From positions 1 through 58,012 of the forward strand of contig JAFGON010000071.1 of NCBI GenBank assembly GCA_016926475.1: 58,012 nt of DNA. The letters run 5' to 3'. Shown here piece after piece: positions 15,443-51,512 of the stretch. Position numbers and translations under genes: made by a program. Source of the DNA: a candidate division WOR-3 bacterium (GTDB taxonomy: Bacteria > SDB-A). The notes under the pieces are model-generated. The model did not search any database. It had not been told where the DNA came from and worked only from the letters and a program-made list of their open reading frames with translations. Positions within the stretch are counted from its first letter, which is position 1. Every line of letters starts with the position of its first letter.

Positions 15443-15470
15443 TTGAAAATATCCAGTATTATGATATTAT
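15443..15470 (+). promoter_or_regulatory. promoter giving a leaderless mRNA for the ABC exporter genes
   Basis: TTGAAA (15443-15448), 16-bp spacer, TATTAT (15465-15470). The ATG at 15477 is six bases after the -10 hexamer, at about the expected transcription start, and there is no Shine-Dalgarno. Confidence 0.55.
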
Positions 15471-15476
15471 TTCTGG

Positions 15477-16196
15477 ATGCTTGCAATTAAAAATCTCAAA
15501 AAATTATACGGAAAAACTCTCGCTTTGGACGGAATAGATCTTGAAATTCCTGAAGGCAATATTTTCGCTTTTATAGGACCCAACGGAGCAGGCAAGACGA
15601 CGACAATTAAAATTCTGGCGACTCTTTTACTGCCGAGCGCCGGTGAAATCCACGTAAAGGGTATCGACCTCTTGAGAGAACCCAACAAAATAAAAAAAAT
15701 AATCGGTTACATCCCCGACACGCCGTTTCTCTACGATAAATTGTCGGGTAGAGAATTTTTGCAATTTGTAGCGTCTCTTTTCTCGGTCGAAAGAAAAACT
15801 TTTAATATAAAATTCTCCGAATTAGACGAATACCTTTCTTTTGGAGAATGGATTGACGATCTTGTTGAAAGCTATTCTCATGGAATGAAACAGCGCGTGG
15901 CGATAGCATCTTCTTTGATACACGACCCTTATCTTCTTCTGATAGACGAACCAATGGTCGGACTAGATCCTCTTTCTGCAAAAAAAGTCAAAGACCTTTT
16001 TAAAGAATACGCTTCAAGAGGGAACATAATATTTCTTTCGACCCATACTCTCTCTCTGGCCGAAGACATAGCCGATATCGTGGGAGTGATCAACAAAGGC
16101 AGACTGATTCGCAAAGGATTTACTGAAGATTTAAAATCCAAAAAAGAATCGAATCTAGAAGAAATATTTCTAAAAATGATTGCCGAACAGACATGA
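15477..16196 (+). CDS. ABC transporter ATP-binding protein
   Basis: 239 residues with Walker A (GPNGAGKTTT, about 34-43), a diverged signature (YSHGMKQRVAIAS, where LSGGQ is usual), Walker B (LLLIDEPMVGLD) and the switch His (LSTHTLSLAED). This is the CcmA/ABC-2 exporter class. Its stop overlaps the permease start as ATGA, so the pair is coupled. The start has no Shine-Dalgarno but sits just behind a promoter. Substrate unknown. Confidence 0.9.
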   Translation: MLAIKNLKKLYGKTLALDGIDLEIPEGNIFAFIGPNGAGKTTTIKILATLLLPSAGEIHVKGIDLLREPNKIKKIIGYIPDTPFLYDKLSGREFLQFVASLFSVERKTFNIKFSELDEYLSFGEWIDDLVESYSHGMKQRVAIASSLIHDPYLLLIDEPMVGLDPLSAKKVKDLFKEYASRGNIIFLSTHTLSLAEDIADIVGVINKGRLIRKGFTEDLKSKKESNLEEIFLKMIAEQT

Positions 16197-17851
16197 GAAA
16201 ACTACTGCTGTTAAAGCTCAAAATACTCAAAAGAGATACTTTGAGCTTTTCACTGCAGAATGCAATCAAACTATCGTCTTTTTTACTGGTCACAACGATA
16301 TTCTATTTCGGCATATATTCACTTCTAGTGAAAATTTTCAGTTTTCTGTACGTCGAAGAGTATATCGGACCTGTTATCATCACAAGGCTGATAGCAATGA
16401 CTTTTTCTTCTTTTTTCTTTTTTCTCATCATAAGCAACATTATAACTTCAATACCCACTTTTTTCAGAAACCCAGAGGTTGAATACCTTTTCACTTTGCC
16501 ACTGGATCAAAAAAAAATATTTTTTTCTCGACTGGTGGAAAACATTATCTACGCTTCCTGGGCGAGTTTGATCATAGACATACCCATGATAACGGCGTAC
16601 GGAACAATATACCAGGGATCAGTTAAATACTACTTTACGTCAATCGCGTCCCTTTTGTTTTTCCTTTTGACGACTTCTTCGCTGGGAATATTCATTATAT
16701 TCTCAGTTTTACCGGCTTTTTTAAGTTTTTCAAGACTGAGGATCACATTTTGGATTTTGGCAGTTTTTTCCTTTATGGTGATGGTATATCTGTCTTTCAA
16801 ATTCAACGTCCTCTTCAAAGTTCCAAACATAACCACAATGCAGGAAGTTCTTGATTATATAAAATCATTGGAACTTCCCGCTTTCCGTTTTTTGCCGTCA
16901 GAGTTCTTTGCCGAAGCCATGAAAACCGCTGTGAAACCCGGCTTTTCTTTTCTGAAACCGCTTTTGGCAATGTTGGCTTACTGCGCGGGAGGATTTCTTT
17001 TGCTTGGGGCGTCCTCGTTACGATATAGAAAACTTTTTTTGACCACACCAGCGGTTTTGAACAATTCCCAAAAAAGAAAAAAAAACTTTCCAATCATAAA
17101 AGGAAAGTTCTTCCGCACCGCGAGGATTCTCACTTTGAAAGACATGATTGTTTTTTTAAGAGAACCCACTCAATGGGGGCAAAGCCTTATACTGTTTCTT
17201 CTTCTCGCCATATATCTTTTGGGAATCATCAACTCTTCCTTCAACGTCAGGCATCCTGTTTTTATGACTTTTATATCTTTCGCGAACATTGCCTTCGTCT
17301 CGTACCTCATGGTCACAATTTCGGTGAGATTCACCTACCCGGCGATCAGCCTCGAAGGAAATTCATTCTGGTTGATGAGGACATACACCGATTTAAAAAC
17401 ATTCATAGCTACCAAGTTCATGATAAATTTAATCCCTGTTTTGTTGGTAGGGCTTTTTCTTGTCTCAATCGGAAATTTTTTCCTCCACACGGGTTTTTTG
17501 ATTGCCTATATAGGAATCATAAACATTTTTCTTTTTTCCTGGGGGATCACCGGCATAAACATAGGAATAGGAGGGTTGGTTCCTAATTTTAAAGAGAAGA
17601 ATCCGTCCAGGCTTTCCGCCGGAGCCGGAGGAATTATCTCCGCGGTGATAAGTCTTTTTTATCTCGTTTTTTCTCTTCTGATTATGAACCAATGGGCTTA
17701 CGATTATTTCCGAAAAACATTTTTTTTCGGAGGAGAAGTGAATTTCAAATTGCTCGCCCTTTGTCAATTGACTGTAGCTCTGCTGACCTTTCTATTCGCC
17801 TTTCCGTTCCCCGTGCTAGCCCTGAAATCTTTGAAAAAGACGAATTTGTGA
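16193..17851 (+). CDS. ABC exporter permease (large PF16949-like)
   Basis: 552 residues, strongly hydrophobic with roughly 12 transmembrane segments in two halves (for example FYFGIYSLLVKIFSFLY; LILFLLLAIYLLGIINS; LFYLVFSLLIMNQ). It resembles the 'putative ABC exporter' permeases that pair with a single CcmA-like ATPase. ATGA overlap with the ATPase gene upstream, and GTGA overlap with the YigZ gene downstream. The transported compound cannot be read from sequence. Confidence 0.8.
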   Translation: MRKLLLLKLKILKRDTLSFSLQNAIKLSSFLLVTTIFYFGIYSLLVKIFSFLYVEEYIGPVIITRLIAMTFSSFFFFLIISNIITSIPTFFRNPEVEYLFTLPLDQKKIFFSRLVENIIYASWASLIIDIPMITAYGTIYQGSVKYYFTSIASLLFFLLTTSSLGIFIIFSVLPAFLSFSRLRITFWILAVFSFMVMVYLSFKFNVLFKVPNITTMQEVLDYIKSLELPAFRFLPSEFFAEAMKTAVKPGFSFLKPLLAMLAYCAGGFLLLGASSLRYRKLFLTTPAVLNNSQKRKKNFPIIKGKFFRTARILTLKDMIVFLREPTQWGQSLILFLLLAIYLLGIINSSFNVRHPVFMTFISFANIAFVSYLMVTISVRFTYPAISLEGNSFWLMRTYTDLKTFIATKFMINLIPVLLVGLFLVSIGNFFLHTGFLIAYIGIINIFLFSWGITGINIGIGGLVPNFKEKNPSRLSAGAGGIISAVISLFYLVFSLLIMNQWAYDYFRKTFFFGGEVNFKLLALCQLTVALLTFLFAFPFPVLALKSLKKTNL

Positions 17852-18489
17852 AAAATATTTGTTATGTGCCTTCAGATGAATTTTGGGGCGAACTTGTAGA
17901 AAAAAAAAGCAGGTTCATTTCCTCTCTCGCGCCCGTAAAGTCTATTGAAGACTGTAAAAAAATAATAGCTTCACGCAGATCTCGCTTTAAAAACGCCAAA
18001 CATCATCCGTGGGCTTATATTTTAGAAGGGCAGAAAAAGTATTCCGACGACGGTGAACCGACAGGGACTTCAGGAAGACCAATATTGGCATGCCTTGAAA
18101 GGGAGTCCATATGCGGCGCTATAATAGTCGTCAGCAGAATTTTCGGCGGCATAAAACTTGGGGCATCGGGTCTTACAAGAGCTTACATCAAAGCCGCGAA
18201 ACTGTCTCTTGAAGCGGCGTTATTCAAAAAACTCGTTGAAATGGCAGACATTGAAGTGACATGCGAATACGGTACGTATGAAAGTTTTAAAACAGCCTTA
18301 AAATCTCTGAAAATTTTTTACCTTGATGAGAGTTTTACCGAAAAGGTTTTGATCCATTTCTCTATAGAAAAAAAAGACGAAGGATGCCTGGAGGAAATCA
18401 TCCTGAAATTCGATTCTGTATTCTGTTTGAAAATCGGGGAGAGGAAAACCTATATCGATGATTTTAGTAGAATACCGTCATCTATTTGA
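17848..18489 (+). CDS. YigZ/IMPACT-family protein
   Basis: 213 residues from the GTG at 17848, which overlaps the permease stop as GTGA; the frame extends further upstream only inside the permease gene. Typical IMPACT signatures are KKSRFISSLAPV, AKHHPWAYILE, SDDGEPTGTSGRPIL and IVVSRIFGGIKLGASGLTRAY. Length fits YigZ (about 205). The family's biochemical role is unsettled (a translation or stress link in YigZ/IMPACT). Its stop overlaps the convergent thioesterase gene by 8 bp. Confidence 0.9.
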   Translation: MKNICYVPSDEFWGELVEKKSRFISSLAPVKSIEDCKKIIASRRSRFKNAKHHPWAYILEGQKKYSDDGEPTGTSGRPILACLERESICGAIIVVSRIFGGIKLGASGLTRAYIKAAKLSLEAALFKKLVEMADIEVTCEYGTYESFKTALKSLKIFYLDESFTEKVLIHFSIEKKDEGCLEEIILKFDSVFCLKIGERKTYIDDFSRIPSSI

Positions 18490-18964
18490 AATACTCAGAC
18501 AGAGGTCCTTTCTCAACGTCGATATCAGCGGATTTTGAAAATTTTTTCTTTTCCGGAATAAAATAGATACCGTTGGCAAAACAGTATACCTTTTCCTGTG
18601 TATCTTCAATCGAAGCTTCACAGAATATCGACCTCCTTTTCACCTCCAGAACTTTCCCCCGTGCCTTATATTCTCTGTCAAGCTTCAGAGGAAGCCTGTA
18701 TTTGATTTCCAGGGACATCGTAACTGTCATGATTTGAGTTTTTGCAAAACAAGCCCAGAACATAATCTCGTCAAGAACTGTTCCAGCTATTCCTCCGTGT
18801 AGCATTCCGGGAAAACCCTCGAACTGTCGTTTGGTTTTGAATGATGTCGTCACTTCGTCTTTTCCTTCAAAGAATTCGAGTTGCAGACCATGCTCATTGT
18901 GAGGAGAACACGCGAAGCAATAATAATTGTTTAAGCTTAAAAATGGATTCTTTACTTTTCCCAT
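18482..18964 (-). CDS. PaaI-type hotdog-fold thioesterase
   Basis: 160 residues with the hotdog signature FPGMLHGGIAGTVLDEIMFW (about 52-71), whose His-Gly-Gly and downstream Asp/Glu form the acyl-CoA thioesterase active site. The N terminus carries a Cys pair (YYCFAC) seen in several related 4HBT proteins. It probably hydrolyses acyl-CoA; substrate unknown. No Shine-Dalgarno; the ATG is 10 bases behind a consensus-like promoter. Divergent from lptE. Confidence 0.8.
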   Translation of the reverse strand: MGKVKNPFLSLNNYYCFACSPHNEHGLQLEFFEGKDEVTTSFKTKRQFEGFPGMLHGGIAGTVLDEIMFWACFAKTQIMTVTMSLEIKYRLPLKLDREYKARGKVLEVKRRSIFCEASIEDTQEKVYCFANGIYFIPEKKKFSKSADIDVEKGPLSEYFK

Positions 18965-18979
18965 ATATCAAATAATAAT
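18951..18979 (+). promoter_or_regulatory. possible leaderless promoter of lptE
   Basis: TTTACT (18951-18956), 17-bp spacer, AATAAT (18974-18979, one mismatch to TATAAT). ATG 18988 lies eight bases after it. The -10 box coincides with that of the opposing thioesterase promoter. Confidence 0.4.
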
Positions 18980-19003
18980 AAATGATAATGAAAGTATTGT
19001 CAA
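18975..19003 (-). promoter_or_regulatory. promoter giving a leaderless mRNA for the thioesterase gene
   Basis: Minus strand TTGACA (19003-18998), exactly 17 bp, then TATTAT (18980-18975). The ATG at 18964 begins ten bases past the -10, leaving a leader of about 3-4 nt and no Shine-Dalgarno. Confidence 0.65.
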
Positions 19004-19479
19004 AAAATGTCATAGTGTCAGTTTTAGTTCTTTCCGGTTGTGTGGCTTATTCTTTTCATGGAGGATCTTTCCCCCAGAAAGCCGAAACAATTTCTATTCC
19101 GGTCGCCGATAATTCTTCCGGAATGTACGGTCTGGAACAAGACTTCACCCAAAACGTCAGAAATACATTCATAAAAGACGCGAGGTTGCGCCTGTCTGAT
19201 TCCAAGGATACCGATCTAACTCTTTTGTTGAGAGTGACTGCATATTCCAACGAAGTGTTTTCGTACACTTCGGACGAGCAAATTGAACAGTACCAAGTTT
19301 CCATATCGGTCATCGTGACATACATAAACAACATTGAGAATGACACGATATGGAAGGACAAAGTAATTATTGCTCAGGGCATTTATTCAGCTTATAATCA
19401 GACTGAAGATGACGGTAGGAATTTGGCTTACGATGATTTTTCGAAAAACCTTGTTTCTTTGATGACAGAAAACTGGTAA
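18988..19479 (+). CDS. lptE: LptE-like LPS-assembly lipoprotein
   Basis: About 163 residues. Lipoprotein signal with lipobox LSGC, then the LptE opening CVAYSFHGGSFPQKAETISIP and the family's 'VADNSSGMYGLEQDFT ... IKDARLRL' pattern. LptE plugs the LptD barrel that inserts LPS in the outer membrane. ATG 18988 gives a normal n-region (MKVLSKNVIV); ATG 18982 is a near alternative. No Shine-Dalgarno. It is followed 34 bp later by the HU gene. Confidence 0.8.
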   Translation: MKVLSKNVIVSVLVLSGCVAYSFHGGSFPQKAETISIPVADNSSGMYGLEQDFTQNVRNTFIKDARLRLSDSKDTDLTLLLRVTAYSNEVFSYTSDEQIEQYQVSISVIVTYINNIENDTIWKDKVIIAQGIYSAYNQTEDDGRNLAYDDFSKNLVSLMTENW

Positions 19480-19513
19480 ACTTCGCGGAATGTTTTGATG
19501 CAAAGGAGTCAAA

Positions 19514-19810
19514 ATGAGAGAAACAACAAAGACTAAAATGGATCTAATCAACGAAGTGGCTGAATCCACTGGTTTTCCAAAAAAAGATACGAGCATTATT
19601 GTCAATGCCTTTATAGACGCACTTGTAGGAACGATTGCCAGACACGAAAGAGTTGAGATCAGAGGTTTTGGAGTATTCAAAGTTAAAAGCAGAAAAGGGA
19701 GAAGCGCGATCAATCCCAGAACAAAACAGATGATGAATATCCCCGACCACTCAGCCCCTACTTTCAAACCCGCGAGATTTATAAAGGAATCTGTTAAAAA
19801 AGATCAATAG
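19514..19810 (+). CDS. HU/IHF-family DNA-bending protein
   Basis: 98 residues with the full HU/IHF fold: N-terminal helices (KTKMDLINEVAESTGFPK), RVEIRGFGVFKVKSRKGR leading to the DNA-binding arm (INPRTKQMMNIP), and the tail PTFKPARFIKESV. An AGGAG precedes ATG 19514. It bends DNA in the nucleoid. It is probably transcribed together with the small basic gene and tRNA-Arg downstream. Confidence 0.92.
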   Translation: MRETTKTKMDLINEVAESTGFPKKDTSIIVNAFIDALVGTIARHERVEIRGFGVFKVKSRKGRSAINPRTKQMMNIPDHSAPTFKPARFIKESVKKDQ

Positions 19811-19818
19811 GAGGAACC

Positions 19819-19914: not shown

Positions 19915-19933
19915 AAAATAGCTGAAAAGATTC

Positions 19934-24208: not shown

Positions 24209-25516
24209 ATGGAAAAAATCAAAAAAATATTGAAATCCTCCTTCAGGTCGCTGAGCAATTTCAATCTTTTCGACCTAAGGCATCCCTGGCTGAAATTCGT
24301 GCTTTTAATAACTCTGCTGACGATAACCGGAGTAGGCATTTTATCATATATCATGACTCAAAAACTGATCAGCGACATCAAAAAATCCGAAAAACTTGTA
24401 GCTCAAGGCTACGCGTCTTTGATGACTTTTTTCACCACCCAAGTAGCTCAGGATCCCACAAACGAGAAAATATTCCTCGAGGGAAAAAGAATCATCGCTT
24501 CAATACCCATCCCTGTCATAATAACTGAACCCAACGGAAAGCCGAGGGCGTGGAGAAACATAGGAATCGATCCCGACGCAGTCACCAGTGAAGAAATCGA
24601 CACTACAGACTTAGAATCCATGGACAACGTCCATCTGCTGAAAATCGTTGAAGAATACAAAAAAATGGACGAAGTCAACGACCCCATACCTATCTATGTA
24701 GAAGTAGGAGAAGTTCGCCTGACAGCGGCTTATCTGCATTACGGCAACCTTCCTTTTTTAAAAACAATTAACCTCCTGCCTCTGGTTCAGACTGTGCTTT
24801 TAATCGCTCTTCTGTTCACCCTTCTCATCTCCTTGAGAATAGCCAGAAGTTGGGAGAGGGACAACATCTGGATGATAATGGCAAAAGAGACAGCTCATCA
24901 ACTCGCCACACCTCTATCTTCGATAATGGGCTGGACTGAATTTTTTAAAACGGATCCCTCAACCGTAGAAGAAGGGCTCGACAGCATTGAGAGAGATTTG
25001 ACCAGAATGAACAACATCATTAAAAGGTTCAGCCGTATAGGAACTTCACCGACTATGACATACATCGACTTAGATGAAATAGCCAGAAACGCGGTGGAGT
25101 ATTTTTCGAGCAGACTCCCGACTTTGGGAAAAGGAATCAAATTAAAATACCAGTCAACCGGAAAATGCTCTGTCGTGGGCGATGCCGAACTTCTATCATG
25201 GGTTGTCGAAAACCTGATAAAAAACTCTCTCGACGCTATGAATAAAGATCAGGGACACATATCCATAAATCTCGAAAAAGACGAAAAGAAAAAAAAGGCA
25301 CTTCTCCGGATCAAGGACAACGGCAAAGGGATGACTAAAAAACAATCGTCTAAAGTCTTCGACCTCGGATACACTTCAAAGAAATTCGGGTGGGGTATGG
25401 GTCTCACCCTTTCCAAGAGGATCATCGAAAATATTCACGAAGGGAGAATATACATCGAGAGTTCCAAAGTGGATCAAGGGACCGTCTTCGCCGTCGAACT
25501 CAAAACATCTTCATAG
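24209..25516 (+). CDS. orphan sensor histidine kinase
   Basis: 435 residues. Two transmembrane helices (about 31-50 and 187-208) flank a periplasmic sensor region without recognised domain. The H-box is MAKETAHQLATPLSSIM with His230. The HATPase domain has the N box (ENLIKNSLDA), G1 (DNGKGM) and G2 (GWGMGLTLSKRI). It has no receiver or HAMP, and no response regulator gene adjoins it. ATG 24209 lacks a Shine-Dalgarno. The last 6 bp overlap the convergent lamin-tail gene. Confidence 0.9.
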   Translation: MEKIKKILKSSFRSLSNFNLFDLRHPWLKFVLLITLLTITGVGILSYIMTQKLISDIKKSEKLVAQGYASLMTFFTTQVAQDPTNEKIFLEGKRIIASIPIPVIITEPNGKPRAWRNIGIDPDAVTSEEIDTTDLESMDNVHLLKIVEEYKKMDEVNDPIPIYVEVGEVRLTAAYLHYGNLPFLKTINLLPLVQTVLLIALLFTLLISLRIARSWERDNIWMIMAKETAHQLATPLSSIMGWTEFFKTDPSTVEEGLDSIERDLTRMNNIIKRFSRIGTSPTMTYIDLDEIARNAVEYFSSRLPTLGKGIKLKYQSTGKCSVVGDAELLSWVVENLIKNSLDAMNKDQGHISINLEKDEKKKKALLRIKDNGKGMTKKQSSKVFDLGYTSKKFGWGMGLTLSKRIIENIHEGRIYIESSKVDQGTVFAVELKTSS

Positions 25517-27220
25517 CTTCTCGGCGAGGACCACTGTCAGCTTTCTCGAAAATGAATTACCTTCTATCAAGTCGGATGAAATAAAAATCAAATAAATTCC
25601 GGGAGGCGATATTTGCCCGTTTTTGTCTCTACCATCCCATATAAAGTATTGTTCCAACCCGGGTTCAAAACTCTCGAATTCCCTCAGCACAAAACCTCTT
25701 ATATCGTATATTTTGACTTTTATCCTCTCTGGATAAGTTCCGAGTGAAATCCCTATGACGCAAGTTTCGTCAAAACCGTCTCCGTCCGGTGAAAACGGAT
25801 TAGGGCTGACTGATGCATTTCCTGTTATTTGCGGCAGTATGGATTGAACCGAATTGACCTCACCGGGCGTAGAGCGCTCTGGAGAGACGCATTTAAGCCA
25901 ATTTGACTGTTGCGAAGAACTTACATCGTCACAGACCCTCTCAAGGCTGAAACCGTTTTCCCACGAGGAAAATGCATACAAAAGATTGTCGATGACTGTC
26001 CCGTAAAAGTCCTCTATACTGAGCGAATCCTCCGAGTTTCCGAGAGTAGGCCAATTATCAAGCTGTAGGAGTTCTCCGTCAAACGATCCGTGCTCGGATC
26101 TGAATGCGGCTGAATCTTCACAGAGGACAACAAAGGATTTAGCGGATGCTGATATCTGGGCTGACGTTGTCTCGGTGCCGCTGAAAATTCTGACTTCTAA
26201 AGAGCAATAATCGTATGACCTGTTTCTGATTTCAAACCATTCCCCTGACACATCCGGAGCGAACATCAACTCTGACAATACTATCTGACCCGGTAATTCG
26301 CCGAATCTAACCAGTCTCGAAGCAGAGGCTTCAAGGGCTTTAACCCAGAAATTATACAGTCCCGGGGGGGCAGGATTCCATACGCTTGAAAGGGAGTCAT
26401 GTTCCCCGGGATGAAGAGACTCGACGTAAAAATATTCAAAAACAGGGTTCAAACTATCTTGTCCGCTTAAACGTTCAGTTGAAAGACCTCTCAGTAAAAA
26501 ATTTCCCAAAGTCTCAGGACCAAAATTTTCAAAAACCACCGAAACAGTGCAGGCTTCTCCCGGTTTGGCTTCTGAAAATTTCATCTGAGAGGGATCGATT
26601 CCCAGATTTCCGCAAAGCACACTGTTGTCCATGCCAGGCGTGCATGAATCTTTGGATGGAAACCAGTTTTTTTCCAAATCTTCAAGGTAGGGATTCAAAC
26701 GTTCAACGGAAATTCCGTCTCCCGGGTCAAAAGGAATTGAATCCATGGAATCCATCGGTGTGCCGTAGGAAGATATCGTATTTTGAAAACTGTCTAGAAG
26801 TATCAGAGGATCCGTCGTAGACAAGCCGTTTCCCAGTGTTGTGTTTCCGACAGTTACAATCAAAGAGCTGTCTCCAAATGTATAGGGCTGGTAAAAATCT
26901 CCTGAGTCCACGTATTCAGGGTCGAGCACCACTGCGTATTGTCCCGGTAAAAGAACGGTAGTACGCCATAGAACATTCTGGGCTAGCAGACGGTCGTCCG
27001 TCCAAGCGATTATGACGTCAGTCTGGTCTCCGTCTGTTACGAATAACCCCGACAGATCTACAGGAAATCTGGATAAGTTCAACAGTTCGAAAAATTCATT
27101 CCTGTCCCCGGGAGATCCCGCTCCCGACTCGCTTCCTTTTGGGTTAGCCCCAACTTCGTTGATGACAATATCTTCGGCATAAGAATAACCACTGCACAAT
27201 ATATTGACAAAAACCGCCAA
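25511..27220 (-). CDS. secreted lamin-tail-domain protein with FlgD-Ig-like C terminus
   Basis: Roughly 570 residues. After a short hydrophobic N terminus ending SYAEDIVINE comes a lamin-tail-domain-like segment (IVINEVGANP, NEFFELLNLSRFPVDLSG, GDGISVERLNPYLEDLEKNW), then a CARDB-like region (MKFSEAKPGEACTVSVVFEN) and a second lamin-tail-like piece (LSELMFAPDVSGEWFEI). The C terminus is a FlgD-Ig/sorting-type domain (SPNPFSPDGDGFDE and IWDGRDKNGQISPPGIYL). The start is uncertain: TTG 27220 is the only usual start that avoids the divergent gene; ATG 27301 would give a longer signal peptide but overlaps it by 60 bp. Confidence 0.7.
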   Translation of the reverse strand: MAVFVNILCSGYSYAEDIVINEVGANPKGSESGAGSPGDRNEFFELLNLSRFPVDLSGLFVTDGDQTDVIIAWTDDRLLAQNVLWRTTVLLPGQYAVVLDPEYVDSGDFYQPYTFGDSSLIVTVGNTTLGNGLSTTDPLILLDSFQNTISSYGTPMDSMDSIPFDPGDGISVERLNPYLEDLEKNWFPSKDSCTPGMDNSVLCGNLGIDPSQMKFSEAKPGEACTVSVVFENFGPETLGNFLLRGLSTERLSGQDSLNPVFEYFYVESLHPGEHDSLSSVWNPAPPGLYNFWVKALEASASRLVRFGELPGQIVLSELMFAPDVSGEWFEIRNRSYDYCSLEVRIFSGTETTSAQISASAKSFVVLCEDSAAFRSEHGSFDGELLQLDNWPTLGNSEDSLSIEDFYGTVIDNLLYAFSSWENGFSLERVCDDVSSSQQSNWLKCVSPERSTPGEVNSVQSILPQITGNASVSPNPFSPDGDGFDETCVIGISLGTYPERIKVKIYDIRGFVLREFESFEPGLEQYFIWDGRDKNGQISPPGIYLIFISSDLIEGNSFSRKLTVVLAEKL

Positions 27221-27232
27221 TATAAGTATAAT
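27204..27232 (+). promoter_or_regulatory. perfect consensus promoter giving a leaderless mRNA
   Basis: TTGACA (27204-27209), 17 bp, TATAAT (27227-27232): both hexamers match the sigma70 consensus exactly. ATG 27242 starts nine bases after the -10, at the expected transcription start, and nothing like a Shine-Dalgarno lies between. Confidence 0.8.
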
Positions 27233-27241
27233 TAAATTGTT

Positions 27242-27535
27242 ATGAGTACTAAAACCGAAATCAACTCGAAGAAATGGATGAAAGCTCTTGAGGACCTTCA
27301 TGAAATTGCAGTTAAACTCGGCGTTGAAGTTATATACGATAGGATAAGCGGTGAAGGCGGTTTCTGCAGAGTTCACGAAAAACCAGTCATAGTTCTCAAC
27401 CGAATTTACAGCACCCAAGCTATTGTCCGTATCTTTATCCAAAACCTCAGCGCTCATTATTCTCTCGAGGAAGTCTACCTATCTCCATTTCTAAGAAACC
27501 TCGTGGAAAAAAGGCAAATTTCTCACGCCAGTTGA
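27242..27535 (+). CDS. small conserved protein of unknown function
   Basis: 97 residues, soluble, with the pattern ALEDLHEIAVKLGVEVIYDR followed by GGFCRVHEKPVIVLNRIY. It resembles a small uncharacterised family common in Bacteroidota-like genomes ('leader helix, gG.CRv..k.vvvlN'). No metal or catalytic motif is certain; the single Cys and its Arg-Val context are conserved-looking. It is expressed alone from a perfect promoter. Its 3' end stops 13 bp short of the convergent dihydrolipoyl dehydrogenase gene. Confidence 0.75.
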   Translation: MSTKTEINSKKWMKALEDLHEIAVKLGVEVIYDRISGEGGFCRVHEKPVIVLNRIYSTQAIVRIFIQNLSAHYSLEEVYLSPFLRNLVEKRQISHAS

Positions 27536-30452: not shown

Positions 30453-31187
30453 TCAAAATATGAAAACCGAAGCTCCCACAGGAATCAGACTGTCGACGAT
30501 TTCGAGGTCTTCTTCCTTGAGCCTTATACAACCGTGAGAGTATACTCCTCTGCCTATTTGACCTTTGTGTATCAGTATTCCTTCTCCGAGATTCAACGCA
30601 TAATTGCCAAGAGCTCCCGGTACTTCTCTCACCCGCAGTTTGTCTTCCTCAGGAAGGCTGTCGTAAAAGGCGATAGACTGATTGAAATCGAGGGAATCGG
30701 GAATCACTATCCATTCAGTATCGCTGGGGATTTCAAGACCTTGTTCCCGCCAGAACCAATTAGGCCTTATCCAGTATGGTTCTGTTTTTTTTGCCAGCAC
30801 TCTTCTTTCACCTGTTGGAGTTTGAAAGTTGAACTGCTCCCCCGCTCTCAAGACTTCTCCTACACCAGTAGCGCAAGATCCTTCCCATATAGTTTTATCG
30901 CGCTTTTTTACCCAAAAATGCTGACGTCTGAGGCTGATCAACATGTAGTATTCGTCTGTTTTGAGCGTCTGGTTTTCAAAGGCGAATTTTTCGACGAGAT
31001 ATTCGAGGTTTGAAGACGAATTGACGAGATTGGATATCACTATGTTCAGACTATCCCTTTTGTTTTCAAAATAGGTCGCCTTTTCCCCTAAATGAGATGT
31101 TTTTCTGTACTGAAAATAAAAAAACACCCCTTCAACCAGGATCAACAGAGACAAAACCGCAATCACAATATTTTTTTTGTTTTTCAT
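30453..31187 (-). CDS. L,D-transpeptidase (YkuD domain), membrane-anchored
   Basis: 244 residues. One N-terminal membrane anchor (IVIAVLSLLILVEGVFFYF), a short coiled coil, then a YkuD domain ending with the catalytic motif RGVYSHGCIRLKEEDLE (Cys near residue 219). Such enzymes make 3-3 peptidoglycan cross-links or attach proteins to the wall; the periplasmic domain contains MLISLRRQHFWV typical of the fold. No Shine-Dalgarno; ATG 31187 starts seven bases behind a promoter -10. lnt follows. Confidence 0.9.
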   Translation of the reverse strand: MKNKKNIVIAVLSLLILVEGVFFYFQYRKTSHLGEKATYFENKRDSLNIVISNLVNSSSNLEYLVEKFAFENQTLKTDEYYMLISLRRQHFWVKKRDKTIWEGSCATGVGEVLRAGEQFNFQTPTGERRVLAKKTEPYWIRPNWFWREQGLEIPSDTEWIVIPDSLDFNQSIAFYDSLPEEDKLRVREVPGALGNYALNLGEGILIHKGQIGRGVYSHGCIRLKEEDLEIVDSLIPVGASVFIF

Positions 31188-31194
31188 ACGGTCT

Positions 31195-31222
31195 ATTTTA
31201 TTGAATAATCCATTAAAGTCAA
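31195..31222 (-). promoter_or_regulatory. promoter giving a leaderless mRNA for the L,D-transpeptidase gene
   Basis: Minus strand TTGACT (31222-31217), 16 bp, TAAAAT (31200-31195). The start codon is seven bases after the -10. The -35 lies one base from the -35 of the divergent alr promoter. Confidence 0.6.
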
Positions 31223-33228: not shown

Positions 33229-35496
33229 ATGGAAGCAATTTTATTTTTGCAATCACTTGTCTCTTTTGAAAATACCGTTGACAATCTTTTCTGGCTAGCT
33301 CCCGCAGGGGCAGTTGTGGCGCTTTTATTTGCCTTCATTTTTTTCAGATCTATCCTCAAGGAAGAAGCGGGTGACAAGAAAATGCGCGAAATAGCCAACC
33401 ACGTCAGAGTCGGCGCAATGGCTTACATGAAACAGCAATACAAAATCGTGTTCGTTTTCTTTTTGTTCGCCTTCATTTTTTTCGCTTTCCTCGCGTTCGT
33501 CCTCAAAGTTCAATCTCGATGGGTTCCATTCGCTTTTCTCACCGGAGGATTTTTCTCGGGTCTGGCTGGTTTTATAGGCATGAACACCGCCACACTGGCT
33601 AGCTCGAGAACCGCAAGCAAGGCTAGAGACAGTCTTGACGGCGCGCTGAAAGTGGCTTTTCGTTCCGGCGCCGTAATGGGTTTGACAGTAGTCGGACTCG
33701 GCTTGTTAGATATTTCTCTGTGGTTTATAGTATTGCGCCTTTTTGTCGGAATAAAGGATTTAAACGAAATCACGGTGACAATGCTCAGTTTCGGAATCGG
33801 CGCTTCATCACAAGCTCTTTTCGCGAGAGTAGGCGGCGGCATCTTCACCAAAGCCGCCGATGTTGGAGCTGACCTCGTCGGCAAAGTCGAACAGAACATC
33901 CCAGAAGACGACCCAAGAAACCCGGCTGTCATAGCGGACAATGTGGGCGACAACGTCGGAGACGTAGCCGGTATGGGAGCTGATCTATACGAGAGTTATT
34001 GCGGAAGCATTCTTGCTACAGCCGCCCTCGGAGCAGCAGCTGGCGCGAGTTTGGGCCATGGACAATTTCTACTTGTGGTCGCTCCGATGATAGTGGCGGG
34101 GATTGGATCTTTTCTTTCAGTTCTAGGAATTTACCTCGTCAAAACAAAAGAAGGCGCTACTCAAAAACAACTTCTTCATTCTCTCTCCGTGGGCATCAAC
34201 ACGAGTTCTGCATTCATAGCTCTTTTGTCTCTCGCCGTCATTTATTTAACTTTAAAAACCGTTCTTTCCGGTCCATCAATTGCTTCAGGTTTCATGGGTA
34301 GTATTGTCGGAAGGTGGCCCGGGATCTGGCTTTCTATGCTTTCAGGTCTTTTCGCTGGTATAACGATAGGAAAATCGACAGAATATTTCACCTCTTCGGA
34401 CTTCAAACCAACACAGAAAATAGCAAAACAAGCCCTGACGGGCACTGCGACTTTAATAATCGAAGGAATCGGCTCCGGTATGCTTTCGACAGTAGTCCCT
34501 GTCCTGGCAGTCTCCTCGGCGACTTTGCTTTCTTATTGGCTATCGGGAGGTTTTCACAACGCCTCTTTCGGGCTTTACGGCATAGGTTTCGCCGCGGTTG
34601 GAATGCTTTCGACCTTAGGCATTACCCTCGCGACTGACGCTTATGGTCCTATAGCCGACAACGCTGGAGGAAACGCTCAAATGAGCGGTCTGCCTGAAGA
34701 AGTCAGGAAAAGGACTAATGCTTTGGACTCTCTTGGAAACACAACCGCCGCAACAGGTAAAGGATTCGCGATAGGCTCTGCTGCTCTGACAGCTCTGGCT
34801 CTAATAGCAGCCTACGTAGAAGAGATTAGGGTATCTCTTCTAAGAGCGGGACAGACTGTTCTTGAATTGGGCCATGGAACAATCGAGACGGCTTCCGCGA
34901 CTTTTTCCGATTTTATGAATTTTTACAGCGTAAACCTGATGAACCCTGTCGTTTTGATAGGGGCTTTTTTGGGAGCCATGCTTCCTTTCGCATTTTCGGC
35001 TTTGACCATGAAAGCGGTCGGCAGAGCCGCACAGGCAATGGTCAACGAAGTAAGAAGACAATTTTCCGAAAAAAAGGGGATATTAGAAGGGACAGAAAAA
35101 CCGGACTACGCTTCTTGCATCCAAATTTCCACTAAAGGGGCGCAGAGGGAAATGATTTTTCCTTCTCTTCTGGCTATAATTACGCCTGTAGTGACTGGTT
35201 TTCTTCTCGGCATAGCCGGGGTAATCGGTCTTCTCGTTGGAAGCCTTATCACCGGATTCACACTGGCGATTTTCATGGCAAACGCGGGGGGAGCTTGGGA
35301 CAACGCGAAAAAATTCATCGAGGAAGGCAATTTCGGTGGAAAGGGATCCGATGCGCATAAAGCTGCGGTCGTGGGCGACACCATAGGAGACCCTTTCAAA
35401 GACACCTCCGGACCAAGCCTGAACATTCTTATAAAGCTCATGAGTATGGTCAGCGTTGTGGTTGCGGGTCTGATCATTTCTTTTCATCTTTTGTAA
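33229..35496 (+). CDS. hppA: membrane-bound, K+-dependent-type pyrophosphatase
   Basis: 755 residues, about 16 membrane helices. PPi/Mg-binding motifs are intact: [59 protein letters not shown] and [19 protein letters not shown]. In the K+ determinant motif [11 protein letters not shown] the residue is Ala rather than the Lys of K+-independent enzymes, so it is of the K+-dependent class. Members of this class pump H+ or Na+; which one cannot be settled here. A near-perfect Shine-Dalgarno (GGAGGTGA) precedes ATG 33229. It recovers energy from biosynthetic PPi. Confidence 0.95.
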
Positions 35497-42442: not shown

Positions 42443-43177
42443 TCATCTGACAGGTTCGCATCCGGTTTCGTCAAAGGGAATTCTTTTGTTTATGTGAAAA
42501 TAAACACCTGAATACACTCTGCAGTCTAAATCTCTGCCTTCATTTTCAGCGTATGGGTGTATCCACCAAATATCGGTTTTATAAGAAGGATAAGCGTAAT
42601 AACTGTAAACTGATCCAGAAGACCTCGGTCTCAGCCCCACCTTCGATACTACTGGATACGAGCTGTCTCCGTTTTCTTCTATAACCTTAAGCAAAGATTC
42701 CAAAACATTTTCCGGTCTGTCTTCGTAGCCTTCGACATAGAAATCCGCAGCAGCTCCCATTATGTGTTTAGATGTCATTGATACTTCATGCGGATTACCT
42801 GAATCTCCATTTTCGTTTACATATTTATACAAGTCTGCGGCAATATACCTGTTGTGCTTTATCGACCTGTACCCAGATATTATAAAGACTTGAGAGTTTA
42901 TCTCGTTTTGAAGATCGTTGAGTAAATCCAGAAGATCCGGGTCTATTCCTCTTCTCGGAAGAGTTCCCGAATCGCCGTCGTAAAAAGTTTCTCCGTTCCA
43001 GACGATAGGTGGATTTTCTCCAGAATCCCCTTTACACCTGAAATCTTCGACGGTGATTTCCCTTAGTCGCAATGAACTGCCGGGGAGCAAAGCAAAAAAA
43101 ACAATGAGTGCAATATACAATAAGATAACACCTCCTTTTTTTGGTAAGGTCGGTTTTTCTTGTCCTTGTAAGCTCAA
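42443..43177 (-). CDS. M15/DUF882-like peptidoglycan peptidase
   Basis: Up to 244 residues. One hydrophobic N-terminal segment preceded by PKK (VILLYIALIVFFALLPG), then VEDFRCKGDSGENPP, VFIISGYRSIKHNRYIA and HIMGAAADFYVEG, the SGYRS/HN and H..GxAxD motifs of the YcbK/peptidase M15A group, with a further His in YSGVYFHIN. It probably cuts peptidoglycan in the periplasm. The start is uncertain: TTG 43177 keeps the basic n-region, but a strong GGAGGTG inside the frame (plus-strand positions 43131-43137) would favour a shorter protein. Divergent from proS, 31 bp apart. Confidence 0.7.
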   Translation of the reverse strand: MSLQGQEKPTLPKKGGVILLYIALIVFFALLPGSSLRLREITVEDFRCKGDSGENPPIVWNGETFYDGDSGTLPRRGIDPDLLDLLNDLQNEINSQVFIISGYRSIKHNRYIAADLYKYVNENGDSGNPHEVSMTSKHIMGAAADFYVEGYEDRPENVLESLLKVIEENGDSSYPVVSKVGLRPRSSGSVYSYYAYPSYKTDIWWIHPYAENEGRDLDCRVYSGVYFHINKRIPFDETGCEPVR

Positions 43178-46465: not shown

Positions 46466-48156
46466 TGCCAAAGGTCGTAACGGAAAAACAATCGCTTCTC
46501 TCTCTGGCAGAAAAACCCATAAGCTTGGAAAAAATTCAAGAATTGTCATGGCTGGCAAAAGCAGAGATGACCATTTCAGCTGACACGGAAGAAATAACAC
46601 TTGAATTTGCAGACACAAACAGACCTGATCTATGGTCCCCAGAAGGCCTCATGAGACTCATCAACCAGTATCTTGAGGGAAAAGCCAGGGATTATTCTTA
46701 CCTTTCGGATCCATACGACAACGAAAAATACGTTATCGTCGAGGAAAGTGTCCAGCGAGTCAGACCATACATAGGTATGTTTCTCTGCAAAATGCCTCCC
46801 GTCACAGAAAAGACGCTTAAGAGTTTAATTCAGACACAGGAAAAACTGGCGGAAAATTACGGAAAAAAAAGAAAAATAGTCAGCATTGGACTTTACCCCG
46901 CATCTATTGTCGATTTTCCGATAATATACAAAGGCGTAAAACCCAATGAAGAGTCTTTCACTCCTCTTGGATTCGAAGAAGAAATGACTCTGGCAGAAAT
47001 TTTAGTGAAGCACCCAAAAGGAATCGAATACAGAGATATTCTCGAAGCAAGAAAATGCGTGCCTTTGATGGTAGATAAAAAGGGTGAAATTCTCTCTTTT
47101 CCGCCAATCATAAATTCAAGGAGAACCGGAGAGGTGAAAATCGGAGACACATACCTAGCGGTTGAAGCCACGGGAAACGATCTTTCGGCAGTTCGACTCG
47201 TTCTGAACATTTTCGCCATGAACCTCAGCGACAGAGGAGGACAAATCACAAGGATGAGGTCGCTGTACCCCGACAATCAAATTTATACTTTTCCCACGGA
47301 CGAAACTGAAGAGTTCTACCTAAACATACCTCAAGTGAATAATCTTCTCGGAAGCGAATTCGGAATAGAAAAAATTTCGTCTAACCTGAGAAAGATGGGT
47401 CTAAAATCCAAAAAAGGTACTTTCGACAAAGAACTTATTGTGACAGTTCCTTTTTACAGAAGGGACATAATGCACGAAGTGGACATTATTGAAGACATCG
47501 CTATAGCTTCGGATTACAACGATTTCGAACCTCAGATGCCCGAAAGCTACACCAAAGGAGGCTTGAGTCCACAGCAGGAACGGGTGGACACTGTTCGTCA
47601 GATATCAATTGGTATGGGGTTTTTAGAATATATGGGTAATATACTGACTTCGAAGGAGACGATGAAGACTTGCGCCGGAAAGCACAGCGACCCAATCGAA
47701 ATCGCAAACCCCATGACTTCAATGTTTTCATGTCTTCGGGATTTTCTTTTTCCAGGACTCCTCACCGCAGAATCAAAAAACAGCAAATCCTTGTATCCTC
47801 ACCATATCTTTGAAACAGGAGAAATCGTGAGAAAGGTTTTCGGACAAGAAGCTCTTAAAACGGACACTGTGTTTTCAATAGCCTACTTGATAGCAGGACC
47901 CGAGACAAATTTTTCTGATATATATTCTGTTATTGACACCATTTGCGAAATGCTCTCCGTGAAATTATCTCTTTTGGAAAAAGATTTCGATTTTTTCATT
48001 CCAGGCAGAAGCGCTTGTGTCTATCTCAACGGAGTAAATTCGGGATTTTTGGGGGAAGTTTCTCCAAAATTGCTCGATGTTCTTGGAATCAGAATGCCGT
48101 TGGTTTTATGCGAAATAAATGACATAAGTTTTTTATTTGAAAGGAAAGCAAATTGA
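46465..48156 (+). CDS. pheT: phenylalanyl-tRNA synthetase beta subunit, archaeal/eukaryotic type
   Basis: 563 residues, far shorter than bacterial PheT (about 800) and without its N-terminal EMAP and C-terminal anticodon domains. Signatures of the archaeal form: LEFADTNRPDLWSPEGLMRL, VRLVLNIFAMNLSDRGGQI and MHEVDIIEDIAIASDYNDFE, with GNILTSKETMK and ETGEIVRKVFG near the end. It forms the alpha2-beta2 enzyme with the preceding subunit. TTGA overlap with the OsmC gene. Confidence 0.92.
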   Translation: MPKVVTEKQSLLSLAEKPISLEKIQELSWLAKAEMTISADTEEITLEFADTNRPDLWSPEGLMRLINQYLEGKARDYSYLSDPYDNEKYVIVEESVQRVRPYIGMFLCKMPPVTEKTLKSLIQTQEKLAENYGKKRKIVSIGLYPASIVDFPIIYKGVKPNEESFTPLGFEEEMTLAEILVKHPKGIEYRDILEARKCVPLMVDKKGEILSFPPIINSRRTGEVKIGDTYLAVEATGNDLSAVRLVLNIFAMNLSDRGGQITRMRSLYPDNQIYTFPTDETEEFYLNIPQVNNLLGSEFGIEKISSNLRKMGLKSKKGTFDKELIVTVPFYRRDIMHEVDIIEDIAIASDYNDFEPQMPESYTKGGLSPQQERVDTVRQISIGMGFLEYMGNILTSKETMKTCAGKHSDPIEIANPMTSMFSCLRDFLFPGLLTAESKNSKSLYPHHIFETGEIVRKVFGQEALKTDTVFSIAYLIAGPETNFSDIYSVIDTICEMLSVKLSLLEKDFDFFIPGRSACVYLNGVNSGFLGEVSPKLLDVLGIRMPLVLCEINDISFLFERKAN

Positions 48157-48566
48157 AGTGCACAACTAATTGGATAAGTGACATGAAATTCGAAACTCAT
48201 CTCGGACACCATACAGTTAAGATGGACACCGTGGAAAATTTTGGAGGTCATGACGAGGCTCCCATGCCGAAAAGCCTTTTGTTGGCAAGCCTTTCAGGAT
48301 GTACTGGCATGGATGTGGTCTCTATATTAAAAAAAATGCAAGTAAAAAATTACCAACTGCAAATCGAATGCAGCGCAAAACAATCGGATGAACATCCCAA
48401 GATTTTCACCGAAATAAACTTAAAATACGTTTTTAAGGGAAAAGACCTTCCTCTTGACAAAATAGAAAAAGCCGTGGACCTTTCCTTCACAAAATACTGC
48501 GGAGTGACCGCGATGCTTCAAAAAAGTTCAATTCTGACAAAAGAAATAGAAGTGCTGTCTTTTTAA
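48153..48566 (+). CDS. OsmC-family protein
   Basis: 137 residues from TTG 48153. OsmC fold with the peroxidatic-site pattern PMPKSLLLASLSGCTGMDVV and a second Cys in TKYCGVTAMLQKS. These two cysteines are the catalytic pair of OsmC/Ohr thiol peroxidases; the family also contains members of unknown role (YhfA type), which this one resembles in length. The end of a plus-strand operon; no terminator hairpin is visible in the 33 bp before the convergent gene. Confidence 0.85.
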   Translation: MKCTTNWISDMKFETHLGHHTVKMDTVENFGGHDEAPMPKSLLLASLSGCTGMDVVSILKKMQVKNYQLQIECSAKQSDEHPKIFTEINLKYVFKGKDLPLDKIEKAVDLSFTKYCGVTAMLQKSSILTKEIEVLSF

Positions 48567-48599
48567 AATACGAATAATCAAGATTTACGGCGCGACCTC

Positions 48600-49250
48600 T
48601 CATTTAAGAATTTCAACAATTTTTTCTAAAAATTCCGCTCTTTGCGGTCTGTTGTGCCCCGACAACACAATTTCTGGTTTAAAATCCAGGCACTTTTTCA
48701 AGTGCTCGATGAACTCAGCTCTATCAGTCTCCAATTCCGGTACTATGTTTTCAGCGTCATCTCCAATATTGTCGCCAACAAAAAGAATTCCTTCGTTTTT
48801 ATAGAAAACGCTGATGCCGTCGACTGTGTGCCCTGGCGTTGAAAAGATTTGGATTGAATCATCTAAAAAGTTCAGTTCGCCATCGAACGTGACGTTAGGA
48901 AAGCATTTCCCGACTTCTCCTCTCGTATATTCCCTCTTGGATGACAACAATTCATCAAAACATTTTTTTTGCAACTCGGCGGATTTTCTGTGGGAAATTA
49001 TTTCTTTTCCTTTGAAAAAACAATTACCCCAGACATGATCCCAGTGATAATGCGTGTTGACGACTTTGATGGGTTTTTTGGGGTCAATTCTGCTCATGAT
49101 CAATTCCGAACTATCAGATCCGAATCCAGTGTCGATTATGTAATTGTTCTTTTTGGATCTGACTATATAGCAGTTAGTGGGGCAACCTGGTATTACATAC
49201 TGGACAAGACAGGTTACATCAGATGAAATCTTTTCAAATTCATGTTCCAC
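48600..49250 (-). CDS. metallo-beta-lactamase-fold hydrolase (glyoxalase II-like)
   Basis: 216 residues. Metal motif THYHWDHVWGN, third ligand in FSTPGHTVDG, then FVGDNIGD and VLSGHNRP complete a two-metal MBL site. The closest general class is glyoxalase II-like hydrolases; substrate unknown. It is the second gene of a minus-strand pair, 18 bp after another MBL-fold gene of a different subgroup. Confidence 0.85.
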   Translation of the reverse strand: MEHEFEKISSDVTCLVQYVIPGCPTNCYIVRSKKNNYIIDTGFGSDSSELIMSRIDPKKPIKVVNTHYHWDHVWGNCFFKGKEIISHRKSAELQKKCFDELLSSKREYTRGEVGKCFPNVTFDGELNFLDDSIQIFSTPGHTVDGISVFYKNEGILFVGDNIGDDAENIVPELETDRAEFIEHLKKCLDFKPEIVLSGHNRPQRAEFLEKIVEILK

Positions 49251-49268
49251 TTGGTATTCCGTCTCCTC

Positions 49269-49919
49269 TCAGAGTTTGTGTTTCAGAACCAAAACCTTTG
49301 TCTCCTCGGGCAAACCTCCGATTTCGACTTCACAAGAATCAATAATTTCGACATTGTTTTTATTTTTGAGAAATTCTCCAACTGAAGAAATGGGAAAATC
49401 GAGAACTTCGGTTTTATAATGCATAGGAATCACGATTTTGCATTCGAGTTTTTCCGCAATTTCATCCGCCTGATTGGCATCTATGGTGTAATGACCCCCG
49501 ACGGGCGTCAAAAGAATATCTACTCTTCCAATTTCTTCCCTCTTTGCACCGTCCAAAACTTCTCCAAGATCACCGAGATGACACACCTTCAAACCATCGA
49601 TCTCTATTACGAATACTATGTTTTCTCCCCTCTCGGATCCGCCTTTGTCGTCATGAAAAGTTTTTACCCCTTTTATCCTGATCCCTTTAACTTTTTTAAT
49701 CCCTGTCTCTTTGACGACAATGAAATTTCCCGGTACCGATTCCACGCTGTTGTGGTCCGAATGCGAATGGCTTACAACGACTATATCGGCTTCTTCGTCA
49801 ATCTTCCCATAGCCTACGGAACCACCGCAGCCGCCTGATTTATAAGGATCTGTAAGTATTCTCAAACCGCTTTTTGAAGTGATCATAAAGCATGAATGCC
49901 CAAGCCACTTAATATTCAT
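49269..49919 (-). CDS. metallo-beta-lactamase-fold hydrolase (UlaG/YtkL-like)
   Basis: 216 residues. It opens KWLGHSCFMITSKSGLRILT, as in UlaG/UPF0173 proteins, with the metal motif VVSHSHSDHNSVES and later CHLGDLGEV, LTPVGGHYTID and IPMHYKTEV. This subgroup acts on small phospho-compounds or is of unknown use. GGAGG five bases before ATG 49919. It lies 24 bp from the divergent cyclase gene. Confidence 0.85.
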   Translation of the reverse strand: MNIKWLGHSCFMITSKSGLRILTDPYKSGGCGGSVGYGKIDEEADIVVVSHSHSDHNSVESVPGNFIVVKETGIKKVKGIRIKGVKTFHDDKGGSERGENIVFVIEIDGLKVCHLGDLGEVLDGAKREEIGRVDILLTPVGGHYTIDANQADEIAEKLECKIVIPMHYKTEVLDFPISSVGEFLKNKNNVEIIDSCEVEIGGLPEETKVLVLKHKL

Positions 49920-49943
49920 TTTAACCTCCCGTGAGGCGCGACA

Positions 49944-51026
49944 ATGCCGATTATCCTTTTGACTTCATTCTATACACTCAATATTATATTTGCAATGAGC
50001 GTTCTGCAAAAAGACAAAACCGTAAAAATCACACTGGGAACTTTTACATCCGGAATCATTTTCGGAATTTTCACTTTTCTTTTCTTGAACATAAGATGGC
50101 AGAGTTTTTTACTCGGTTTGATAATTGGCATTCAAGCTTACCTCTACACTTTTTTCATTTCGGATTTCCTCATGAAACGACTGCGTCAGGATCATATTTT
50201 GCTTTCTCTTCTTCTAAATTCAATAGCAAGAGTAACGATCATATTTTTATCAATTTTCCTGTCCTTTGAAGTCCTCAGTAGTTTCAGAATCGGGATAGTG
50301 AGTTTTTTCAATTTAATAGATTCTTCCTACGATAAAATATTAATAGGTCTGGTATTCGGCTTGGTCCTCAGTCTGATTATCGACGCTTACGAACTATTCG
50401 ACACCCTTTTAGGCAAGAATATTTTCTTGAAAATCATCGCGGGTAGATTCAACCAGCCGTTTGAAGAAGAACTATTTTTCATGTTCCTCGATTTAACTTC
50501 TTCCACCTCGCTCGCAGAAAAGCTAGGCCATAAAAAATATCTTATGTTACTCAACGATTTTTTTCACGATTTAGCAACTCCTGTCAGTCTTACCGGCGGA
50601 CAAATTTACAAGTATGTCGGAGATGAAGCTATAATAACTTGGAGTTTGAAAAAGGGCTGTATCCGTTCGGCTCCCTTGAGATGTTTTTTTATGATGAGAG
50701 AGGCTATAACCAAGAAAAGTAAAAAATACCTCTACAAATACGGGACTGTACCATCATTCAAAGCCGGCTTGCACGTTGGAAACGTAGTCACCGGTGAAAT
50801 TGGACTGGTCAAAAAAGAAATATCCCACATAGGCGATGCGATCAATACTACTTCAAGGTTAACAGAACTCTGCAAAGAACTAGGTAAACCAATTCTGACT
50901 TCCAGGGACGTATTAGAAATAATGACTATGGAAAAAGAATACGTTTTTTATCCTGTGGACGAAAAGGTCCTGCGAGGGAAGACAAAATCCATAGAAATAT
51001 TTTCGGTGGAACTCAGAAAACAATGA
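49944..51026 (+). CDS. membrane class III adenylate/guanylate cyclase
   Basis: 360 residues. Six hydrophobic segments in the first 165 residues, then a class III cyclase domain (about 175-330) with metal Asps in FLDLTSSTSLAEKLG and YVGDEAIITW, and the transition-state Asn/Arg in HIGDAINTTSRL. All catalytic positions seem present, so it is probably active as a homodimer making cAMP (or cGMP). No cNMP-binding effector is encoded nearby. ATG 49944 has only a weak Shine-Dalgarno. Confidence 0.85.
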   Translation: MPIILLTSFYTLNIIFAMSVLQKDKTVKITLGTFTSGIIFGIFTFLFLNIRWQSFLLGLIIGIQAYLYTFFISDFLMKRLRQDHILLSLLLNSIARVTIIFLSIFLSFEVLSSFRIGIVSFFNLIDSSYDKILIGLVFGLVLSLIIDAYELFDTLLGKNIFLKIIAGRFNQPFEEELFFMFLDLTSSTSLAEKLGHKKYLMLLNDFFHDLATPVSLTGGQIYKYVGDEAIITWSLKKGCIRSAPLRCFFMMREAITKKSKKYLYKYGTVPSFKAGLHVGNVVTGEIGLVKKEISHIGDAINTTSRLTELCKELGKPILTSRDVLEIMTMEKEYVFYPVDEKVLRGKTKSIEIFSVELRKQ

Positions 51027-51064
51027 TCTAAAGCATTATTTGATTCCCTTTTTAAAAAAACCTC

Positions 51065-51093
51065 TTGACAAAAACGTTTTTCTTTGTTAGATA
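51065..51093 (+). promoter_or_regulatory. promoter of the dtxR-feoA-feoB genes
   Basis: Consensus TTGACA at 51065-51070. The -10 is imperfect (TTAGAT 51087-51092 at 16 bp or TAGATA 51088-51093 at 17 bp). ATG 51102 is 31 bases after the -35 box, so the transcript is inferred to be leaderless. Confidence 0.55.
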
Positions 51094-51101
51094 AAACTAA
51101 C
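51086..51101. promoter_or_regulatory. inverted repeat overlapping the -10: candidate DtxR-type operator
   Basis: GTTAG (51086-51090), six A/T-rich bases, CTAAC (51097-51101). TTAG/CTAA half-sites are typical of DtxR/IdeR/MntR operators. The repeat covers the -10 and ends at the start codon of the DtxR-type gene, as expected for iron-dependent autorepression. Confidence 0.5.
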
Positions 51102-51512
51102 ATGAACAAAAAAACAAAGAAATATCTTTCTTCCCATATGGAAGACTATCTTGAAGCGATTCTCGATATCGCCAACAAACAAAAAAGAGTACGCGTCACC
51201 GACGTGAGTTTGTATCTAAACGTAAGAAAACCGTCTGTAAATTCAGCTGTAAAAAAGCTCAAAGCGATGAAATTGCTGAAGCATGAAAAATACGGAGATA
51301 TACAACTGACGGAAAGAGGTGAAAAACTAGCTGAAAAAATACTGCAAAAGCACAATGTACTTTTCAATTTTTTAAGCGAATATTTGGATGTCCCGAAAGA
51401 CATCGCCGCTGTAGAAGCTTGCAAGATAGAGCACAACATCAGCGCAGAAACACTCAAAAAACTCTCCGACTTCATTGATTGTATAAAAAATATGAATTTC
51501 CAAAAAAGTTAA
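51102..51512 (+). CDS. DtxR/MntR-family metal-dependent repressor
   Basis: 136 residues from ATG 51102; the frame's earlier ATG (51084) lies within the promoter. A winged helix (VTDVSLYLNVRKPSVNSAVK then LKAMKLLKHEKYGDIQLTERG) and the dimerisation domain with metal-ligand residues (AEKILQKHNVLFNFL; EACKIEHNISAETLKKL) are present, but no SH3-like third domain, as in MntR. Directly upstream of feoA and feoB, so it is most likely the Fe(II)-responsive repressor of this operon. Confidence 0.85.
   Translation: MNKKTKKYLSSHMEDYLEAILDIANKQKRVRVTDVSLYLNVRKPSVNSAVKKLKAMKLLKHEKYGDIQLTERGEKLAEKILQKHNVLFNFLSEYLDVPKDIAAVEACKIEHNISAETLKKLSDFIDCIKNMNFQKS

Follow-up and report, generated by a model that had tools for sequence, protein, structure and literature searches.

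In a 58,012-nt contig of a candidate division WOR-3 genome, hereafter the window, six genes raise the question of whether transcription can start at, or within a few bases of, the start codon itself and translation proceed without a Shine-Dalgarno (SD) sequence. The window is one contig of the metagenome-assembled genome (MAG) G000 (2.15 Mb, 106 contigs), which was compared with the congeneric genomes G001 and G002 and with G003, a genome of another genus for which the sample was smaller. Promoter scores, given in bits, describe sigma70-like -35/-10 pairs matched to the E. coli consensus. An earlier note on this DNA had claimed that the six genes share a common geometry, with 28–33 nt from the -35 box to the start codon, and that none has an SD sequence. 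When the upstream regions were scored, all six promoters were present and the distances were as claimed, the end of the -35 box lying 28 nt (ATPase), 33 nt (thioesterase), 31 nt (lptE), 32 nt (small protein), 29 nt (L,D-transpeptidase), and 31 nt (dtxR) before the start codon. Five of the promoters are strong or moderate (small protein 14.0, thioesterase 12.4, L,D-transpeptidase 10.4, and ATPase 9.1 bits, with dtxR moderate at 7.3 bits), and that of lptE is weak (6.2 bits). No SD sequence is apparent in front of any of the six, and where the gene caller chose the same start, the SD match does not exceed 3 nt. SD-led genes do occur elsewhere in the window, as the note had also stated, with AGGAGGTGA before the gene at 33229 and AAAGGAGGTG before the TTG start at 43120 on the reverse strand. 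The features of the ATPase and L,D-transpeptidase genes are:

15443–15448, forward strand: -35 box TTGAAA of the ATPase gene, invariant in G001 and G002
15465–15470, forward strand: -10 box TATTAT of the ATPase gene, spacer 16 nt, 6 nt to the ATG; the corresponding box is TATCAT in both G001 and G002
15477–16196, forward strand: ABC-transporter ATPase (PF00005, E 2e-27), predicted leaderless; promoter-ATG register kept in G001 and G002
31217–31222, reverse strand: -35 box TTGACT of the L,D-transpeptidase gene, invariant in G001 and G002 and also present in G003
31195–31200, reverse strand: -10 box TAAAAT of the L,D-transpeptidase gene, spacer 16 nt, 7 nt to the ATG; invariant in G001 and G002, gap of 9 nt in G003
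30453–31187, reverse strand: YkuD L,D-transpeptidase (PF03734), predicted leaderless

The promoter of the small protein is a perfect consensus (TTGACA-17-TATAAT). Although its open reading frame (ORF) shares bases with an opposite-strand ORF whose 5' end is over-extended, it is conserved in three relatives and is therefore a real gene. The opposite ORF (25511–27457, reverse strand) encodes lamin-tail and CHU_C-like domains, the latter a weak match. It is probably over-extended, with its real start probably at a TTG near 27220, because the 97-aa gene overlaps its first ~70 codons and a signal-peptide-like stretch follows.

27204–27209, forward strand: -35 box TTGACA of the small-protein gene, TTGACA also in G001, G002, and G003
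27227–27232, forward strand: -10 box TATAAT of the small-protein gene, spacer 17 nt, 9 nt to the ATG; the corresponding position holds TAGAAT in G001 and TAAAAT in G002
27242–27535, forward strand: conserved 97-aa protein, predicted leaderless; 77–85% identity within the genus and 61% within the family

The thioesterase and lptE genes are transcribed divergently, 17 nt separating their start codons (18964–18982), and the promoter of either gene is located wholly or partly within the coding sequence of the other. The lptE promoter is the least certain of the six: G001 and G002 retain its TTTACT box, though the encoded protein also constrains these bases, and the start codon may be at 18982, at 18988, or at a downstream TTG, the relatives having a different start. 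A like pair is found at L058:16715/16742, where 26 nt separate two genes that are both predicted to be leaderless. Among divergent pairs, 21% are predicted leaderless at distances below 60 nt vs. 10% above 200 nt, which gives no more than weak support to the generalization that closely spaced pairs are mostly leaderless.

18998–19003, reverse strand: -35 box TTGACA of the thioesterase gene, within the lptE coding sequence, invariant in G001 and G002
18975–18980, reverse strand: -10 box TATTAT of the thioesterase gene, spacer 17 nt, 10 nt to the ATG; invariant in G001 and G002, TATAAT with a gap of 7 nt in G003
18482–18964, reverse strand: 4HBT thioesterase (PF03061), predicted leaderless or with a leader of a few nt
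18951–18956, forward strand: weak -35 box TTTACT of lptE, within the thioesterase coding sequence
18974–18979, forward strand: weak -10 box AATAAT of lptE, spacer 17 nt, 8 nt to the ATG at 18988; GATAAT in G001 and G002
18982–19479, forward strand: LptE lipoprotein (PF04390), leaderless status uncertain

To place these genes in their genomic context, stretches of G000 totaling 1.10 Mb were sampled, and 893 genes were called with our own caller, which uses coding potential and start-codon preference and ignores upstream signals. Genes were counted when they had no SD match of at least 4 nt and a -35/-10 pair scoring at least 8 bits whose end lies 5–11 nt before the start. Such promoters were found in 25 of the 193 operon-leading genes without SD, compared to 1.9 ± 1.5 in dinucleotide shuffles and 1–6 matches in windows of equal width farther upstream. 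At the same threshold, none of the 123 SD genes in the sample had a promoter at 5–11 nt. The peak that the earlier note had predicted for this spacing is thus present, and only in genes without SD. It is a property of operon heads, as only 2 of 364 operon-internal genes have a near promoter. The proportion at SD-less starts also exceeds that at random intergenic positions (p about 1e-10) and at intergenic ATGs that are not gene starts (18/378, p = 0.0006), where near promoters are themselves mildly over-represented (4.8%, vs. 2.7% at random positions). The modal gap between the end of the -10 box and the start codon in G000 is 6–7 nt. If RNA polymerase starts 7 nt after the -10 box, as is established, transcription would begin on or adjoining the A of the ATG. 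In the same pipeline, plasmid pTT27 of Thermus thermophilus, the positive control, gave a peak (6 vs. 0.7 in shuffles), and E. coli K-12, the negative control, gave none (0 vs. 0.3). The congeneric genomes show a similar excess (6 vs. 0.5 in G001 and 7 vs. 0.3 in G002); the smaller sample from G003 gave 2 vs. 0.3, a count too small to speak for or against an excess. The SD class is above background as well, with matches of at least 5 nt in 143 of 462 genes vs. 29 of 462 in a control stretch, so that a general absence of SD sites of the Bacteroidetes type does not describe this genome. A search for the 16S rRNA carrying the anti-SD found no copy in G000–G002 and only the 5' part in G003.

The same pattern appears when the promoters are taken as the point of departure, measuring the distance from intergenic promoter-like sites to the ATGs of ORFs of at least 60 codons. 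Pooled counts in 7-nt bins from 5–11 to 47–53 nt were 32, 4, 22, 12, 11, 5, and 11. The distribution is two-peaked with a near-empty bin at 12–18 nt, as would arise from two separate modes, in which the mRNA has either no leader or one long enough to hold an SD sequence. When all positions including coding sequence were counted, the ATG excess was mild (65 vs. 46.8), and restriction to intergenic sites brought the signal back. ATGs of short ORFs in G000 are also more numerous 5–11 nt past promoter-like sites (19 vs. 7–11 elsewhere). For ORFs of fewer than 30 codons, ATGs are about twice as frequent at this distance, possibly representing 5'-terminal upstream AUGs.

With alternative starts allowed, 45 of 419 eligible genes had a near promoter of at least 7 bits vs. 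9.6 expected, and 60 vs. 21.6 at 6 bits. The excess of 35–38 genes amounts to 8–10% of the genes at the head of operons and about 4% of all those sampled, as a lower bound. Within 15–40 nt, a promoter of equal strength is found for only 26–37% of the leading genes with SD; weak promoters therefore probably escape the method, and the real proportion is likely to be higher. Leaderless candidates prefer ATG as the start codon (36/40 vs. 92/140, p = 0.003). The top candidates encode ordinary conserved proteins, namely a lipoate/biotin ligase, an S49 (SppA-like) protease, Sir2, an SSF symporter, TrkA, an ABC transporter, a UV endonuclease, and a type II/IV secretion ATPase.

The promoters are also conserved among the related genomes. 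For the ATPase, thioesterase, small-protein, and L,D-transpeptidase genes, G001 and G002 keep the boxes at exactly the same distance from the ATG while the spacers diverge, and the L,D-transpeptidase promoter is still recognizable in G003. Across five promoters in the three congeneric genomes, 55 of 60 box positions are invariant vs. 36 of 83 spacer positions (p = 7e-10). Outside the window, the same promoter distance is found in the orthologues of L013:724 and L029:11180 (G002) and of L036:4710 (G003).

Taken together, we consider it very likely that the six genes are leaderless transcription units, with leaders of 0–4 nt, in a genome that mixes two modes of translation initiation. A sigma70-type (primary-sigma) promoter would have RNA polymerase begin on the A of the ATG or just a few bases upstream of it, and the ribosome would start on the 5'-terminal AUG without an SD sequence. 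Where the gap between the -10 box and the ATG is 8–10 nt, a leader of 1–4 nt is as likely as none. For other operon-leading genes, the promoter lies ~19 nt or more upstream and the leader carries an SD sequence.

Several other explanations could produce a similar picture. The upstream regions are AT-rich (A 0.34, T 0.29), as is the -10 consensus, and the six genes were picked by a reader out of about fifty, so that promoter look-alikes near starts might have arisen by chance. This is hardly credible in view of the shuffles, the low counts in other upstream windows, and the empty SD class, and the conservation of the -35 and -10 boxes but not of the spacers adds to what is largely a refutation. 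Alternatively, the start codons could be misplaced, the promoters giving rise to mRNAs with leaders on which translation truly begins farther downstream, behind an SD sequence. Start calling is imprecise in the G000 MAG, and dtxR of G002 does start 12 nt downstream in this way. However, leaderless candidates have an in-frame downstream start with an SD sequence no more often (3/34) than SD genes do (13/132). N-terminal alignments with the congeneric genomes begin at residue 1 or 2 for the ATPase, thioesterase, L,D-transpeptidase, and small protein, and the peak exists only relative to the called ATGs, which makes misplaced starts a very improbable explanation for these genes.

A second promoter farther upstream could also generate leadered mRNAs translated independently of SD (A-rich or S1-dependent), the near box being minor or only regulatory. 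Multiple promoters per gene are common, and about half of the operon-leading genes lack an SD sequence, of which the leaderless set covers only a part. Moreover, Bacteroidetes do use SD-less leadered mRNAs (PMC6847099). On the other hand, just 17–26 nt separate the start codons of some of these genes from a divergent gene, a stretch in which another promoter would hardly fit, the near boxes are close to consensus and conserved, and the near-empty stretch at 12–18 nt would be unexpected if any leader length worked. We thus regard this possibility as quite unlikely.

Variability of the initiation mode within the genus is found at dtxR, which encodes a DtxR/MntR-family repressor. An inverted repeat, GTTAGATAAAACTAAC, ends exactly at the ATG, suggesting that the protein may repress its own gene by binding across the -10 box and the transcription start. 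The sequence GTTAGNNNNAACTAAC has a single exact match in G000, at dtxR, and G003 likewise contains one match, located before a MarR-like gene instead of dtxR.

51065–51070, forward strand: -35 box TTGACA of dtxR, invariant in G001 and G002
51088–51093, forward strand: -10 box TAGATA of dtxR from promoter scoring (or TTAGAT at 51087), spacer 17 nt, 8–9 nt to the ATG
51086–51101, forward strand: inverted repeat GTTAGATAAAACTAAC, probably an operator, reaching from the -10 box to the ATG; likewise found upstream of dtxR in G001 and G002
51102–51512, forward strand: DtxR/MntR-family repressor (PF02742, PF01325), predicted leaderless in G000 and SD-led in G002

At dtxR, G001 has the arrangement of G000. 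In G002 (L085:1501), the promoter is as in G000, AAG replaces the ATG, and an SD sequence, AGAGGTGA, follows with a new ATG 12 nt downstream. This would represent a natural change of initiation mode, the direction of which cannot be proven from three genomes. It is conceivable, though we propose it only tentatively, that the lineage maintains leaderless initiation as a stable inherited minority program beside a working SD system, and that single genes such as dtxR switch within a genus as the terminal AUG is lost and an SD sequence gained.

Signals of this kind were described by Zheng et al. (2011) in 207 of 953 bacterial genomes, among them just one of the 37 from Bacteroidetes/Chlorobi, where 2.4% of the genes were leaderless (PMC3160421). 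Their 'TA-led' genes have a TANNNT box with its first T ~12 nt upstream of the start, lack SD sequences, and occur alongside SD-led genes; a -10 end about 6–10 nt before the start, the absence of SD, and the enrichment at operon heads are likewise found here. In contrast, a TTGACA-like -35 box at 16–18 nt is also shown in our case, and the lineage lies outside the groups listed in that study. Deinococcus-Thermus and Actinobacteria share the promoter-to-start geometry, as also seen in the pTT27 peak, but average 39% and 19% of genes (PMC3160421) vs. the lower bound of about 4% here. Within the Bacteroidetes, mRNAs with short leaders amount to a few percent, with about 3.7% of 5' UTRs shorter than 10 nt in B. 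thetaiotaomicron (PMC7366714) and 5.5% leaderless mRNAs in F. psychrophilum (PMC9723704). A wider kinship with the Bacteroidetes is possible. However, F. johnsoniae (PMC6847099) and B. thetaiotaomicron (PMC7366714) lack SD sites and use -33/-7 promoters, unlike the classical -35/-10 promoters and clear SD sites found here. Leaderless transcription has been predicted in 21.6% of bacterial species, with AT-rich non-canonical sites in the FCB group (PMC9581028).

The earlier note had considered a mixed regime in an FCB-like lineage to be of interest; the pointers to placement here are the NCBI label 'candidate division WOR-3' and the weak CHU_C domain. The regime itself is supported by the peak, the controls, and the conservation, but its novelty is smaller than implied, because genomes mixing leaderless and SD-led genes are common in bacteria and a few percent of mRNAs in Bacteroidetes have short leaders. 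Our literature search found no earlier report of leaderless initiation for WOR-3. Thus, the regime is of a known kind, and what is new, as far as this search went, is its presence in the lineage, the conserved boxes, and the dtxR switch. These findings extend mixed leaderless and SD-led initiation to an uncultured lineage, in which gene callers tuned to SD sequences may misplace such starts. A comparative system for how genes change their start mode is also at hand in the three genomes of one genus, which share conserved leaderless promoters and include one natural switch to SD. If the lineage belongs to the FCB group, it would be a member that retains the classical sigma70 promoter and both modes of initiation.
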